A stretch of 36,062 bases of DNA from the IMG/VR virus record IMGVR_UViG_3300027762_000023, positions 1 to 36,062 of that record; one strand, given 5' to 3'. The DNA comes from a virus. Each line of letters starts with the position of its first letter. Within the stretch, counting starts at the first letter, position 1. Of this stretch, positions 4,339 to 18,168 are shown one piece after another. The translations under genes were made by a program, and so were the position numbers. The notes under the pieces are model-generated. The model did not search any database. It saw only the letters and a list, made by a program, of their open reading frames with translations, and was not told the origin of the DNA.

Positions 4339-4803
4339 ATGCAACTATCAGAACATCTTTCAGTAGGTGAGTACATCAAAAGCGATACAGCAAAGAGAAA
4401 AGGAATAAATAATGCCATGACGGCTGCCCATACTGAAAATGCAAAAGTATTAGCCGCAAAGGTATTTGAACCTATTAGGGTACATTTTGGTAAGCCTATC
4501 TTTTTATCTTCAGGTTACAGAAGCGAGGCTTTAAATTCTGCTATTGGTGGCAGTTCTACATCGCAACATTGTTCGGCAGAAGCGATGGATTTAGACCAAG
4601 ATGATAGAGGAACAGGCGTAACAAATAGAATGGTTTTTGATTACATAAAAGGCAATCTGAACTTTGACCAGCTTATTTGGGAGTTCGGAGATGACACCAA
4701 CCCGGACTGGGTTCATGTCAGCTATAAGGTTAATGGCAACCAAAGAAAGCAAATATTAAAAGCAGTAAAGTCAGGTAATACTACAAGATATGTGCCTTTT
4801 TAG
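4339..4803 (+). CDS. Endolysin, M15-family zinc peptidase
   Basis: 154 aa. It cleaves peptidoglycan stem peptides (D-Ala-type or L-Ala-D-Glu peptidase activity in this family). Zinc site: SxHxxGxAxD-like SQHCSAEAMD gives His77 and Asp84, and DWVHVSY gives His126 with Asp123 as the likely catalytic acid. The SSGYRS motif at 57-62 is also typical. No signal peptide is seen, so it needs a holin. It has the usual length of the single-domain Peptidase_M15_3 type and ends the lysis cassette, followed by a strong terminator. Confidence 0.88.
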   Translation: MQLSEHLSVGEYIKSDTAKRKGINNAMTAAHTENAKVLAAKVFEPIRVHFGKPIFLSSGYRSEALNSAIGGSSTSQHCSAEAMDLDQDDRGTGVTNRMVFDYIKGNLNFDQLIWEFGDDTNPDWVHVSYKVNGNQRKQILKAVKSGNTTRYVPF

Positions 4804-4845
4804 ATTATATTAGCCCTACATTATTGTGTTTGTTTAATTGTGTTT

Positions 4846-4879
4846 ATCCCGGTGGTGTTTACCTTCGGGATTTTTTTTT
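4846..4879 (+). terminator. Rho-independent terminator after the endolysin
   Basis: ATCCCG (4846-4851) pairs with CGGGAT (4866-4871), with inner GGT (4854-4856)/ACC (4861-4863) and a run of nine T. It isolates the lysis cassette from the early promoter 20 bp downstream. Confidence 0.88.
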
Positions 4880-4900
4880 AAAAAAAATATATCAAAATAG

Positions 4901-5303: not shown

Positions 5304-5474
5304 ATGAAAGAGACATTAATTAAATTACGGAAAGAAAAAGGTCTTACACAGGCACAAGTCAGCTTTATTAGCGGTTTATCCCTACCAACTGTTAACAGGG
5401 CAGAGAATAGAAACGTAAAGCTGAAGACTTACGAAATCCTTTTTACGGCAATAAATAATTATAAGGTTGATTGA
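5304..5474 (+). CDS. XRE/Cro-type helix-turn-helix regulator
   Basis: 56 aa, ATG 5304, TGA 5472-5474. The whole protein is one HTH_3-type domain: LIKLRKEKGLTQAQVSFISG, then LSLPTVNRAENRN as the recognition helix, then LKTYEILFTAINNYKV as the closing helix. Short Cro-like proteins of this size bind palindromic operators as dimers. It lies 360 bp downstream of a promoter that carries a perfect palindrome, so autoregulation is plausible (inference). Confidence 0.75.
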   Translation: MKETLIKLRKEKGLTQAQVSFISGLSLPTVNRAENRNVKLKTYEILFTAINNYKVD

Positions 5475-7926: not shown

Positions 7927-8338
7927 CGCACTAATAACCCTGCAACAAAACCCGTCTAAAGAAAACATAAATAAGCTGGTGGAATCTTTCCGCCAGCAGA
8001 TTGACGAGGGTAATATGAATCCTTTATCTGTTGCAGTAAGTATGGCAGCTTTGGAAACGCTTGTAAAGGAATTACGGGCTGTTATTTCGGGCTATGTTAT
8101 GGATGAGGTAGCAAAGTATCCTAAAAGCAAAGCAGACCATCTTGGTGCATCTGTTAGCCTTGTGGATACAATCAGGCATGACTTCAGCCATATAGAAGCA
8201 TGGAGCGACCTTGAAGCTGTTATAGTTGCAGCACGGGAATCGCAGAAAAGAATAGAGGAAGAGGAAAAAAAATGGAGGCGTGGCGAATTACCCGTTAAAA
8301 ATTCATCCAGCACGTTTAAAGTCCAATTACCTAAATAA
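7916..8338 (+). CDS. Hypothetical protein, partner of the annealing protein
   Basis: 140 aa, overlapping the annealing gene by 11 bp and the next gene by 1 bp (TAATG), so it is translationally coupled. Mostly helical: NKLVESFRQQIDEGNMNP, then VAVSMAALETLVKELRAV, then an acidic/basic helix RESQKRIEEEEKKWRRGELP. Proteins of this type commonly sit beside recombination genes in Bacteroidota phages. Role unknown. Confidence 0.7.
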   Translation: MENNALITLQQNPSKENINKLVESFRQQIDEGNMNPLSVAVSMAALETLVKELRAVISGYVMDEVAKYPKSKADHLGASVSLVDTIRHDFSHIEAWSDLEAVIVAARESQKRIEEEEKKWRRGELPVKNSSSTFKVQLPK

Positions 8339-8565
8339 TGAACGCACATTTAGAAAACGCAATTTCTTACCTGCTTTATGATCTTTCTTTACCATTAGAG
8401 GAAAGACCAGCAAAGGCGGTATACTACAGAACGGGGGCTGATGTTGCGCTATATCTTGGCATAAACGCTACCCGGCTTCCGTATATCAGAATACCCGGCA
8501 AGAAAGTAAGGGGTAAAGATGGTAAAATATATGCGGTAAGAATTGCGCCTGATAAGAAAAAATAG
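8338..8565 (+). CDS. Small protein, possible winged-helix DNA-binding fold
   Basis: 75 aa. The second half (TGADVALYLGINATRLPYIR then GKDGKIYAVRIAPDKKK) resembles the helix-wing pattern of excisionase or MerR-like small DNA binders, with a basic wing and tail. It ends 2 bp before a promoter box. Function unproven. Confidence 0.6.
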   Translation: MNAHLENAISYLLYDLSLPLEERPAKAVYYRTGADVALYLGINATRLPYIRIPGKKVRGKDGKIYAVRIAPDKKK

Positions 8566-8567
8566 TT

Positions 8568-8575
8568 TAATTTTG
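8568..8575 (+). promoter_or_regulatory. Candidate Bacteroidota -7 box before the structured RNA
   Basis: TAATTTTG matches TAnnTTTG. A TTG occurs at about 8542, 26 bp upstream, a slightly long spacing. Transcription would begin near 8580, at the 5' edge of the folded element. Confidence 0.5.
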
Positions 8576-8579
8576 TATA

Positions 8580-8690
8580 GTCGGAGATGAGAGCCTGACC
8601 AACAACAACTAATTTAATGCCTGAAGGGGCGATACTGCCCGGTATAAGTTTACCGGCTCTCATCAGTATCAATCCTTCAGGTTTTTTATT
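8580..8690 (+). ncRNA. Structured leader RNA with pseudoknot and U-tract (candidate riboswitch or attenuator)
   Basis: A gene-free stretch between a promoter box and the ATG at 8693. P1: GATGAGAGCC (8586-8595) pairs perfectly with GGCTCTCATC (8655-8664). Within it, GGGC 8627-8630/GCCC 8637-8640 and GGTA 8641-8644/TACC 8651-8654 stack end to end against P1. CCTGAAGG (8620-8627) in the P1 loop pairs perfectly with CCTTCAGG (8674-8681) outside it, giving a pseudoknot followed directly by GTTTTTTATTTT. The last pairing on its own would be a terminator stem. No known riboswitch consensus was recognised. A short ORF from 8617 (MPEGAILPG...) runs through it and could be a leader peptide instead. Confidence 0.6.
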
Positions 8691-8692
8691 TT

Positions 8693-8950
8693 ATGTCAAA
8701 TACAAAGTATTTTCAAATTGATGGAAGCCAATTAACAAAGACAAATTGCATTGAAAGATTTTTAACGCATAGTGAATTGCAAGGAATTATTGATTATTGT
8801 AAATATCAAATTTTATCTTACGAGTTAGATGGTATAACAGAATTAGACATTTACAAAATGAATAGGGATTTATTGGCTGAAGAAATAAATACAATATCAA
8901 AAATGATTGATATTAATGAAAATATATCAGCTAAAGTAAATAATAAATAA
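8693..8950 (+). CDS. Hypothetical protein behind the structured RNA
   Basis: 85 aa, polar and probably helical (THSELQGIIDYCKYQILSYE then MNRDLLAEEINTISKMIDIN). Its ATG lies 12 bp after the pseudoknot arm and inside the T-rich tract, so initiation or readthrough would depend on that fold. It is 10 bp upstream of the replication gene and may be co-regulated with it. No family was recognised. Confidence 0.65.
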   Translation: MSNTKYFQIDGSQLTKTNCIERFLTHSELQGIIDYCKYQILSYELDGITELDIYKMNRDLLAEEINTISKMIDINENISAKVNNK

Positions 8951-8960
8951 TATTTGTAAA

Positions 8961-9770
8961 ATGGCTAACACTGGGCAAATAGTAAAGTCTAAATTGACTG
9001 AAAAGTACACATCAATTTCAAATGATATTTTAAGGTTCTATAAATTATCAATGGAGGAACGTGGCATGATTTCTTATCTTCTTTCATTGCCTTCTGATTG
9101 GGTATTGTATCGTGAAAACCTTTATAATAGCATGAATGATGGTAAAACTACTATTGATAGGGTATTCAGACAATTACAAAAAAAAGGCTTTATTGTATCA
9201 ATTAGGGTACATGAACAAGCTACTGGTAAGTTTATAGGATGGAATCATGTAGTATATGCAGAGCCTGTTAAACCGATAGAAAAATATTCCGACATTGGTA
9301 ATAACCGAGATAGGGAAAACCCGATATCGGTAAACACCGACCTCGGTAAATCAACCCCTATACAAAAGAAAGATATTAATACTAAAGAAATATTTAATAC
9401 AAAAGAAAAAATAAATACAAAGGAGCAGGAAGATTTAGTTTTTATTTCAGATGATTGGAAGGGGTTATGGGATGAATGGATAGAATATAAAGACATACAA
9501 TTTAAACAGAAGTATAAGCTAAATAAGTACGAACAAATAGCAATTAACAAACTTGTTAAACTATCAAAAGGAGATTTGGAATCAGCACAACAAATAGTTT
9601 GTCAGTCAATGGAAGCCACATGGCAAAGTTTTTACCCACTTAAAAATAATACAAATGCTACCACTTTCACAGGCAATAAGCCAAGCAATGCAGACATCTA
9701 CAAACAGCGAAGGGAAGAAATGCACAGAATTGCAGCAGAGATTGACAGACAGCGAGGCATTAGACCTTGA
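8961..9770 (+). CDS. Replication initiator/organiser-like protein
   Basis: 269 aa. Residues 10-80 form a winged-helix domain (TEKYTSISNDILRFYKLSME, then RGMISYLLSLPSDWVLYREN, then TTIDRVFRQLQKKGFI). This is typical of the N-terminal domain of phage replisome organisers and Rep proteins that bind origin repeats. A low-complexity Lys/Asn/Thr linker (about 125-155) follows. A C-terminal helical domain (YKLNKYEQIAINKLVKLSKG then LESAQQIVCQSMEATWQSFY) is like DnaD-type domains. No ATPase or polymerase motif. It is the best origin-recognition candidate in the genome. Confidence 0.65.
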   Translation: MANTGQIVKSKLTEKYTSISNDILRFYKLSMEERGMISYLLSLPSDWVLYRENLYNSMNDGKTTIDRVFRQLQKKGFIVSIRVHEQATGKFIGWNHVVYAEPVKPIEKYSDIGNNRDRENPISVNTDLGKSTPIQKKDINTKEIFNTKEKINTKEQEDLVFISDDWKGLWDEWIEYKDIQFKQKYKLNKYEQIAINKLVKLSKGDLESAQQIVCQSMEATWQSFYPLKNNTNATTFTGNKPSNADIYKQRREEMHRIAAEIDRQRGIRP

Positions 9771-10434
9771 ACGATTCCAAATGGCAAGGGCTACGGCTTT
9801 AGTTAGCGTAGTTAGTATGGACTTGTTTATTGACGAACTAATGCGTGGAATGGCTTTGCTAGGCATTAAAGGCGAAAAGATACCTTCAAATGCTGACATG
9901 GTTAATATGTACAAGTCAGTAATGGAAGAGTACAAAAATATCAAGATTGGCGAAATGTCTTTAGCTTTTGATTTAGCCAGTAAGGGCAAACTGGATATGG
10001 AAGCTGAAACATACCAAAACTTCAGCGTATTATACCTTCACAGAATCCTCCGAGCCTTTGCTCGGTATGGGATAGTAAAGCTGAACGAGATTAAACCCGT
10101 GCAGCAGGAGCAAAGAAGTCACCAAATAGTAACCGACAGGGAAAAGCTGGAGATTGCGTGGGGTTGTTACAAGAAGTTCAGGAAGTGGGATAGCATAGTT
10201 TTCGGGCTTGATGTCTTCAAAATCCTGCACAAAGAAGGAAAAATAGTAGTCACACCAGCAGCAACCCTACAAAAGGTTAGAAGTGCAATGAATGATCAGA
10301 TGATTACAGGTAGCAGCAGGAGGAAGGCTGAAATAGCCAGCCTGCTTAATGATGACGATTATATGGAGAACCAATGTAAGCGAATGGCAGTTGCAGATTA
10401 TTTTGATACTTTTATAAAAAAATCTGAAAAATAA
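9655..10434 (+). CDS. Helical protein of the replication region
   Basis: Up to 259 aa. The ATG at 9655 would overlap the initiator gene by 116 bp. ATG 9688 and ATG 9781 (217 aa, just after the initiator stop) are alternatives, and 9781 removes the overlap. From there it is helical: MARATALVSVVSMDLFIDEL, then VMEEYKNIKIGEMSLAFDLA, then YLHRILRAFARYGIVK, with a polar C-terminal half. There is no Walker A. The arrangement after an initiator suggests a helicase-loader or replication accessory role, by context only. A promoter follows it. Confidence 0.6.
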   Translation: MLPLSQAISQAMQTSTNSEGKKCTELQQRLTDSEALDLERFQMARATALVSVVSMDLFIDELMRGMALLGIKGEKIPSNADMVNMYKSVMEEYKNIKIGEMSLAFDLASKGKLDMEAETYQNFSVLYLHRILRAFARYGIVKLNEIKPVQQEQRSHQIVTDREKLEIAWGCYKKFRKWDSIVFGLDVFKILHKEGKIVVTPAATLQKVRSAMNDQMITGSSRRKAEIASLLNDDDYMENQCKRMAVADYFDTFIKKSEK

Positions 10435-17427: not shown

Positions 17428-18110
17428 TTGTAAAGGTCATACCTTCAAAGGTTGCAAATGAATTTGTCAAGCTACACCATTATTCTGGCAAATTTGTGCC
17501 TAATAGTACAATACATTTTGGTTGTTTTCTTGACAACAAATTGCACGGGGTATTGAGTTACGGCAATTCAATGGATAAATATAAGGTTGGTGCAACTGTA
17601 AAAAATACAGGTTGGAATGAATTTATAGAATTAAATAGAATGGCGTTTGATGATTACCTTCCTAAATATTCAGAAAGCAGGTGCATTGCAATTACATTAA
17701 AATTGCTTAAAAAAAATGCGCCACATATAAAATGGGTAATTAGTTTTGCAGATGGTAGTCAATGTGGTGATGGAACTATTTATAGAGCAAGTGGGTTTAA
17801 TTTGATAGGTATCAAAATAAATAAACAAATATTAGAATGGGATGGTAAAATAATAGCTAAAAAAACTTTAGACAATAAAAACTATCCAACTATAAACGGT
17901 AAATATTACAGCAGGCATTTATTAGAAACGGGTGCAGCAAAACCAATAGAAGGTTACCAATTAAAATATATTTATTTTATAGATAAATCAAAAATAAATG
18001 ATTTAACAGTACCCATACTACCATTTAGTAAAATAGATGAATTGGGTGCTGGAATGTATAAAGGAGAAAAAATAAGTTTAGCAGATAGAAAACAAGCGGA
18101 TGTAGCATAA
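17406..18110 (+). CDS. Mom-like DNA modification protein
   Basis: 234 aa. The segments KLHHYSGKFVPNSTIHFGCF, then LHGVLSYGNSMDKYKVG, then FIELNRMAFDDYLPKYSESR and VISFADGSQCGDGTIYRASG follow the GNAT-like fold of the Mom family of Mu-like phages. Mom modifies adenine so that many restriction enzymes cannot cut. The HYS motif and FADGSQCGDG loop are the strongest signs. The C-terminal 60 residues are lower complexity. Its last 15 bases form the 5' end of the tRNA at 18096. A role in anti-restriction is inferred. Confidence 0.75.
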   Translation: MGRAKEIIVKVIPSKVANEFVKLHHYSGKFVPNSTIHFGCFLDNKLHGVLSYGNSMDKYKVGATVKNTGWNEFIELNRMAFDDYLPKYSESRCIAITLKLLKKNAPHIKWVISFADGSQCGDGTIYRASGFNLIGIKINKQILEWDGKIIAKKTLDNKNYPTINGKYYSRHLLETGAAKPIEGYQLKYIYFIDKSKINDLTVPILPFSKIDELGAGMYKGEKISLADRKQADVA

Positions 18111-18168
18111 TGGTAATGCGGTTAGTATTCCAACTAACAGAAGGCGGTCCGATTCCGACCTTTCCGCT
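18096..18168 (+). tRNA. tRNA-Gly-like gene, anticodon UCC in an 8-nt loop
   Basis: Acceptor GCGGATG (18096-18102) with TTTCCGC (18161-18167), with one T-T mismatch and one G-T pair; discriminator T18168. D-arm GCAT AATGGTA ATGC is perfect. Anticodon stem GTTAG/CTAAC (18121-18125/18134-18138) leaves an 8-nt loop TATTCCAA. T-arm GGCGG TCCGATT CCG(A)CC has one bulged A. G1-C72, C2-G71, U73 and C35-C36 are the glycine identity elements, so UCC is the likely anticodon. The extra loop base is what +1 suppressor tRNAs have. No CCA encoded. Confidence 0.7.

Follow-up and report, generated by a model that had tools for sequence, protein, structure and literature searches.

Attenuators with a terminator between the promoter and the replication-initiator gene are established for pT181 and pIP501 rep, where they work through a countertranscript and mutually exclusive hairpins. 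Here we describe a leader RNA with kissing hairpins from a viral record, IMGVR_UViG_3300027762_000023 (the window, the whole stretch analysed, positions 1-36,062, 36,062 nt), which differs from attenuators of this type in that no antiterminator helix was found in it to match the exclusive hairpins there. In the pRNA of phi29, freely covarying complementary loops join one molecule to the next on the packaging motor. The kissing leader likewise has freely covarying complementary loops in one RNA, but lies in the replication module.

By position, the closest functional analogue is the put RNA of HK022. There, putL and putR give a nascent two-hairpin RNA straight after an early phage promoter and upstream of early genes, as does the kissing leader, but the put RNA is about 70 nt long, binds RNA polymerase and suppresses termination (PMC9378689). 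The likeness is one of position and two-hairpin layout, and on present evidence the kissing leader is not a member of this group. Two adjacent hairpins with kissing loops are also described for the Guanidine-II (mini-ykkC) riboswitch (PMC9094411), whereas in the kissing leader the loop letters are free, the pair is 6-10 bp, phage replication genes lie downstream and there is no Rfam match. GOLLD and ROOL share with it that they are phage-encoded structured RNAs with covarying kissing loops, but they are 600-800+ nt long and form cages (PMC12286853); the kissing leader is about 100 nt and stands before an initiator gene.

Fold of the Leader RNA

An earlier note on this DNA had proposed a compact pseudoknotted RNA of no known family running from a promoter box to the replication operon, a description borne out by the fold and by comparison with Rfam. 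The stretch folded far better than its dinucleotide shuffles (z -3.7, 0 of 200), and when trimmed to the predicted transcript a z of -4.4 was obtained (0 of 200 shuffles). Both long helices drawn in the note, the 10-bp helix 8586-8595/8655-8664 (GATGAGAGCC/GGCTCTCATC) and the 8-bp helix 8620-8627/8674-8681 crossing it (CCTGAAGG/CCTTCAGG), were perfect and lay where it had placed them, as did the U-rich tract (8682-8692) and the start codon at 8693. The coordinates of all features are presented in Table 1.

The relationship between these helices was found to be different from that proposed. In the minimum-energy fold 8585-8594 (the H1 loop) and 8657-8663 were both unpaired, and these two segments are the core of the 10-bp helix. 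The overlap of this helix with the conserved hairpins is confined to 8595 in H1, 8664 in P3 and 8655-8656 in P4, so that about 8 of its 10 bp are compatible with H1 and P3. Judged from sequence, the 10-bp helix, called P1 in the note, is a kissing helix between the H1 loop and the unpaired apical segment of a second hairpin, H2, with the crossing helix forming the base of that hairpin. The two hairpins drawn within the 10-bp helix were not the conserved ones, as homologues gave H1, P3 and P4 instead; the first of them (GGGC/GCCC, 8627-8630/8637-8640) clashes with the conserved P3 and is itself not conserved. The P3 5' arm was identical in locus L003 and replaced in L004, while P4 was matched in L003, L004 and class B by a hairpin that differs in sequence (classes are described below). 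The internal loop was invariant in class E and near-invariant in class D.

Table 1. Features of the leader RNA and its flanking genes in the window.
Feature	Position	Strand	Basis or remark
75-aa gene upstream of the RNA	8338-8565	+	homologues stand before the RNA in classes A-C
Promoter -7 box TAATTTTG (Bacteroidota TAnnTTTG)	8568-8575	+	read from sequence
Predicted transcription start	8580	+	derived from box position
H1, 5'-terminal hairpin (stem 8580-8584/8595-8599, 10-nt loop 8585-8594)	8580-8599	+	minimum-energy fold
Kissing arm 5' (H1 loop), partner 8655-8664	8586-8595	+	perfect complement; covaries in relatives
A-rich linker, unpaired (CAACAACAACTAATTTAAT)	8600-8618	+	minimum-energy fold; A/U-rich linker in all classes
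P2 5' arm of terminator-like hairpin H2 (conserved core 8620-8627)	8619-8628	+	fold; class E P2 covaries
Internal loop, 5' side GGC (UGC in classes D and E), facing 8671-8673 (AAU)	8628-8630	+	
P3 5' arm GATACTG, partner 8664-8670 (CAGTATC)	8631-8637	+	fold
P4 apical hairpin (8639-8644/8651-8656)	8639-8656	+	fold
Kissing arm 3' GGCTCTCATC, pairs with H1 loop	8655-8664	+	complement; cognate/non-cognate test
P3 3' arm	8664-8670	+	fold
P2 3' arm, U-tract immediately after	8673-8682	+	complement; fold
U-tract TTTTTTATTTT, intrinsic-terminator-like tail	8682-8692	+	5-8 U in first 8 nt in 17/17 members examined
85-aa ORF, orphan, directly after U-tract	8693-8950	+	
Replication-initiator gene (MANTGQIVKSK...; O/DnaD-like HTH)	8961-9770	+	PHROG replication initiation matches

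With respect to known families, the window and 12 relatives gave no match at the leader position against Rfam 15 at gathering cut-off (4227 models), and only chance-level matches at a permissive threshold. No published description of a kissing leader RNA was found in the open-licence literature, candidate-RNA lists such as PMC8040213 lying outside this search.

Occurrence and Architecture in Related Viruses

Relatives were collected using the 75-aa upstream gene as query, which gave L003, L004 and L005, and by alignment of a conserved gene of the downstream operon (9655-10434; it overlaps the last part of the initiator gene), which gave 80 viral loci. The leader RNA was present directly upstream of a replication-initiation gene in 68 of the 74 related viral loci with enough upstream sequence. 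No leader RNA was present in L090, where two genes are joined directly and gene order is otherwise kept, and in L015, L018 and L030-L032, which have a further gene in between, the examined stretch yielded no such element. Two additional groups of carriers were obtained by pattern scans. In nearly all relatives the layout was constant, the letters differed and the element lay just upstream of the replication gene; the recurrence of one shape with different letters in dozens of related viruses before DNA-replication genes is the reason we regard it as a real RNA.

The common architecture opened with a TAnnTTTG box, followed by H1 at the predicted start; an A-rich linker then led to a long H2, and a U-tract closed the element. 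Class A comprised the window, L003 and L004, and together with class B carried the extra apical hairpin P4, with the kissing segment on its 3' side. Class C had a long H1, class D was short (GGGUGCGGAA-loop-UUCCAAUCCC), and class E had an H1 of ACAAAG...CUUUGU plus an internal hairpin. A sixth type, F, was formed by L347 and L355, with arms GTGGAG/CTCCAC and GTAGAG/CTCTAC. A covariance model built from class D only, with the window left out (model R2), located the window's element at exactly 8568-8695 with an E value of about 1e-6, and recovered 18 of the 20 viral records tested, normally with one copy each; model R1 recovered 14 of 20. The window itself carries the box, H1 at the predicted start, the linker, H2 with its kissing partner and the U-tract, and on this sequence evidence 8568-8695 is a member of a family of structured RNAs with kissing hairpins.

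The promoter box of Flavobacterium lies at -12 to -5 relative to the transcription start (PMC9723704). An equivalent TAnnTTTG box was seen at the same place in nearly all relatives, with occasional one-base deviations, and for 20 of 21 members the offset between H1 and the predicted start was -2 to +3 nt. The host phylum would be Bacteroidota, as read solely from the promoter type. Cultivated phages searched by DNA and protein included no carrier and no cultivated relative. In 395 Bacteroidota genomes, run with stricter filters than the viral records, model R2 gave no match and model R1 gave two weak matches, both of which lacked the motif on reading. Matches to the pattern GGGTGCGG..CCAATCC in genomes were, as far as checked, chance only.

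Neighbouring Genes

The RNA remained constant while its upstream and downstream neighbours both changed. The upstream position was occupied in classes D and E and in L001 by a DnaA-domain-IV protein instead of the 75-aa gene. Downstream, genes of several unrelated types were found, including HTH_36 initiators, Lin1244_N, a weak DUF1376 match and other replication-like genes. The window has the orphan ORF (8693-8950, with no family and no viral relative) as the first gene downstream of the RNA and the initiator gene as the second. The start codon lay a few nt after the U-tract in classes A-D and F. In class E the hairpin and U-tract were kept with no start codon near, the next located gene being about 300 nt on, and there was no TAnnTTTG between the RNA and that gene in 9 of the 10 loci where it had been located.

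Iteron-like repeats (CCGACATTGG, ACCGAGATAGGG, CCCGATATCGGT, ACCGACCTCGGT) were observed at about 9290-9352, inside the initiator gene, and similar repeats were present in L001 at about 5310-5385. In lambda, iterons likewise lie inside the initiator gene, O. The repeats of the window are probably, from their sequence, a replication origin some 700 nt downstream of the leader.

Covariation of the Kissing Arms

All helices covaried, and compensatory changes, the absence of which from homologues would by the note's own test have refuted its reading, were many. In class E, 98.6% of cells were paired, compared with 86.1% for shuffles and no more than 51% after the partner had been slid by 1-3 columns, and in the kissing helix 5 of 6 pairs had changed on both sides, with up to four pair types; the unpaired cells fit L115, the arm of which sits one column off in the alignment. 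The class B kissing helix was 100% paired. Across classes, 28 distinct arm pairs each complemented their own partner and not one another, the summed Watson-Crick count being 177 for cognate pairs and 72 on average after re-pairing (maximum 99; 0 of 5000). By unbroken Watson-Crick run, the weakest pairs were those of L003 (5 bp) and L004 (8 bp, one G-U included). Two pairs of class E P2 were G-U in every sequence, which points to an RNA hairpin rather than a DNA one.

The arms were also the most variable part. Within class E the kissing arms had a pairwise difference of 0.60 and the linker one of 0.31, and for H1, P3 and the internal loop the value was 0. L343 and L344 were about 94% identical over 1.7 kb including the RNA, yet differed at 8 of 12 kissing positions. 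In two close pairs, picked after inspection, kissing changes exceeded the expectation from the flanks (P 0.003 and 0.02), and other close pairs had no kissing-arm difference. Recombination could be the source of this pattern. Seven-mers of the kissing arms showed no enrichment in the remainder of these phage loci (65 versus 70 per Mb).

The U-Tract and Termination

P2 of the window has 10 bp, including 2 G-U, with 7 U in the first 8 nt after it; this is the sequence criterion of an intrinsic terminator, a stable stem with a U-rich tail directly after. A simple terminator scan did not flag H2, because its loop is too long for the scan pattern. Since class E retains the U-tract without a start codon after it, the tract probably serves as a terminator tail. 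The suggestion that the crossing helix is a terminator stem stands to the extent that P2 and the U-tract are terminator-like.

The best alternative pairings of the P2 3' arm, sought as an antiterminator helix, were 4-7 bp, scattered and not conserved. A classical two-state attenuator was rejected, as no conserved helix competing with P2 was found, and switching must then come from kinetics, the kissing contact or some factor. A leader-peptide attenuator was also rejected. The short ORF from 8617, the conservation of which as protein had been named in the note as a ground for refutation, was not conserved: it was absent from relatives or stopped after 2 codons, with class B reading ATG CCT TAG and most of classes D and E having no ATG.

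Other Elements Near the Locus

A second conserved, very short promoter-plus-terminator unit (TATTTTTGCAATTCGTAATAGTTGGTTAAAGTTCCCTCTGTAAGTACAGGGGGAATTTTTT) was seen at L065:734, L066:1473, L067:1214, L070:1731, L075:2201, L076:18, L077:2266, L078:2255 and L081:2234, and is apparently another small phage RNA. In the window, a terminator-like hairpin (ATCCCG...CGGGAT, then a T run) lies at 4806-4882 after a gene ending at 4803; it gave a weak match to model R1, as did L003:1666-1742. In L104, L200, L208 and L333 a conserved non-coding block of about 260 nt was present just 3' of the class E RNA and before the next gene. About 70 nt of this block matched the crAss-like phage cr118_1 (MT774379.1, 66635-66704, 76%), where the sequence is unannotated and upstream of an ORF; the block was rejected as a tRNA, being negative with ARAGORN. 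A weak Rfam tRNA match at 18098-18164 of the window (30.4 bits, cut-off 29) was not confirmed by ARAGORN.

Discussion

The reading that we favour, at about even confidence on the sequence pattern, is that the kissing leader acts in cis on the phage replication operon, attenuating it as a self-contained element, and so probably sets the amount of replication protein made. Transcription would begin at about 8580 and H1 would fold at once. As H2 emerged, its apical segment would pair with the H1 loop to give a compact two-hairpin kissing fold, and P2 would close beside the U-tract, where a fraction of passages would release RNA polymerase and leave a stable RNA of about 105 nt. The remaining polymerases would read through into the initiator operon, with the first start codon in or right after the U-tract. 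Whether it started at this promoter or farther upstream, RNA polymerase has to cross the U-tract on its way to the replication gene, which makes the element an attenuator in the logical sense. The RNA family supplies demonstrated support in the fold, the kissing covariation, the positions of promoter and U-tract, and the place between promoter and replication gene. Against it count the failure to find a conserved antiterminator helix, the negative result of the simple terminator scan and L090, which keeps the gene order without the RNA.

We infer that the hairpin terminates and the kissing contact tunes termination, and that a phage protein, a host protein or accumulating leader RNA may shift the balance. 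The note had seen the 10-bp helix and the terminator stem as alternative states between which a ligand might choose. In homologues these are compatible parts of one fold, the loop-loop contact capping the terminator hairpin; the kissing letters are unconstrained, unlike those of a ligand-binding core, and no conserved ligand or protein partner was found.

The terminated RNA of about 105 nt might instead be a free-standing small RNA of the phage with trans targets among the RNAs or proteins of host or phage, with read-through incidental and its location reflecting early expression. In class E the next gene begins about 300 nt beyond the terminator in which the RNA ends, and its fold is conserved while neighbouring genes change, as this explanation would have it. 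We nevertheless judge it unlikely, since the start codon within a few nt of the U-tract in classes A-D and F ties downstream expression to the RNA, the arm 7-mers are not enriched in the same loci, and there are no multicopy or displaced examples. It is quite unlikely, in our estimate, that the loop-loop pair is a specificity code, with released leader RNA acting from one molecule on another, either on nascent leaders of its own type or through self-assembly, such that co-infecting phages whose arms match would have their replication coupled or would inhibit one another's. Such a code would explain why the arms change fastest yet stay complementary, and the excess of kissing changes in the two close pairs is at most suggestive of it. 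Pairing in cis and pairing in trans leave identical covariation, as has been shown with GOLLD, ROOL and OLE (PMC12286853).

An improbable reading is that the leader stabilises the 5' end or aids translation, the 5'-terminal hairpin and the kissing fold guarding the mRNA and the U-rich strand before the AUG loading ribosomes in a phylum that hardly uses Shine-Dalgarno sequences. H1 does begin at the predicted 5' end and the U-tract adjoins the AUG in classes A-D, but class E has the hairpin and U-tract with no AUG near. There is a slim prospect that the leader is a put-like element, binding RNA polymerase as a nascent RNA to resist pausing and termination over the replication operon. Its two hairpins just past an early promoter, with no obvious trans factor, recall HK022 putL, but putRNA is about 70 nt and is described without a kissing contact or terminal U-tract (PMC9378689), and the second hairpin of the leader itself ends in a U-tract. 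Slimmer still is the prospect that the complementary loops pair between molecules to give dimers or rings, as in pRNA, GOLLD and ROOL, with arm identity setting the partners. The blindness of covariation to cis and trans pairing (PMC12286853) and the rapid change of the arms would allow this; with roughly 15-25 nt of linker, however, pairing in cis is favoured, and the RNA is a single copy before a gene, with a terminator.

We consider it very improbable that the leader is a metabolite riboswitch in which the kissing fold serves as aptamer: the fold is compact, pseudoknotted and upstream of an expression platform, and the internal loop (K)GC/AAU is conserved in classes A, D, E and F, but this loop is replaced in classes B and C, the kissing letters are free, there is no Rfam riboswitch match and the genes under control are phage replication genes. 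It is scarcely credible that the element works at the level of DNA, whether as origin hairpins or as a recombination site, for although the element sits in the replication module about 700 nt before the iteron-like repeats, at a place where neighbouring genes are swapped, its invariant G-U pairs, strand-specific U-tract and fixed spacing from the promoter speak against it.

The kissing leader thus represents an RNA family with no Rfam match, common in uncultivated, presumed Bacteroidota phages and tied to the switching on of DNA replication. It is short, starts from the first transcript base, has exchangeable arms and ends in a terminator, and so is suited to testing whether a tertiary contact tunes termination. 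L090 offers a natural deletion of the leader, in which a DnaA-domain-like gene runs straight into the replication gene (upstream of 3694). Should arm identity indeed matter between molecules, the family would constitute an RNA-based incompatibility system in phages.
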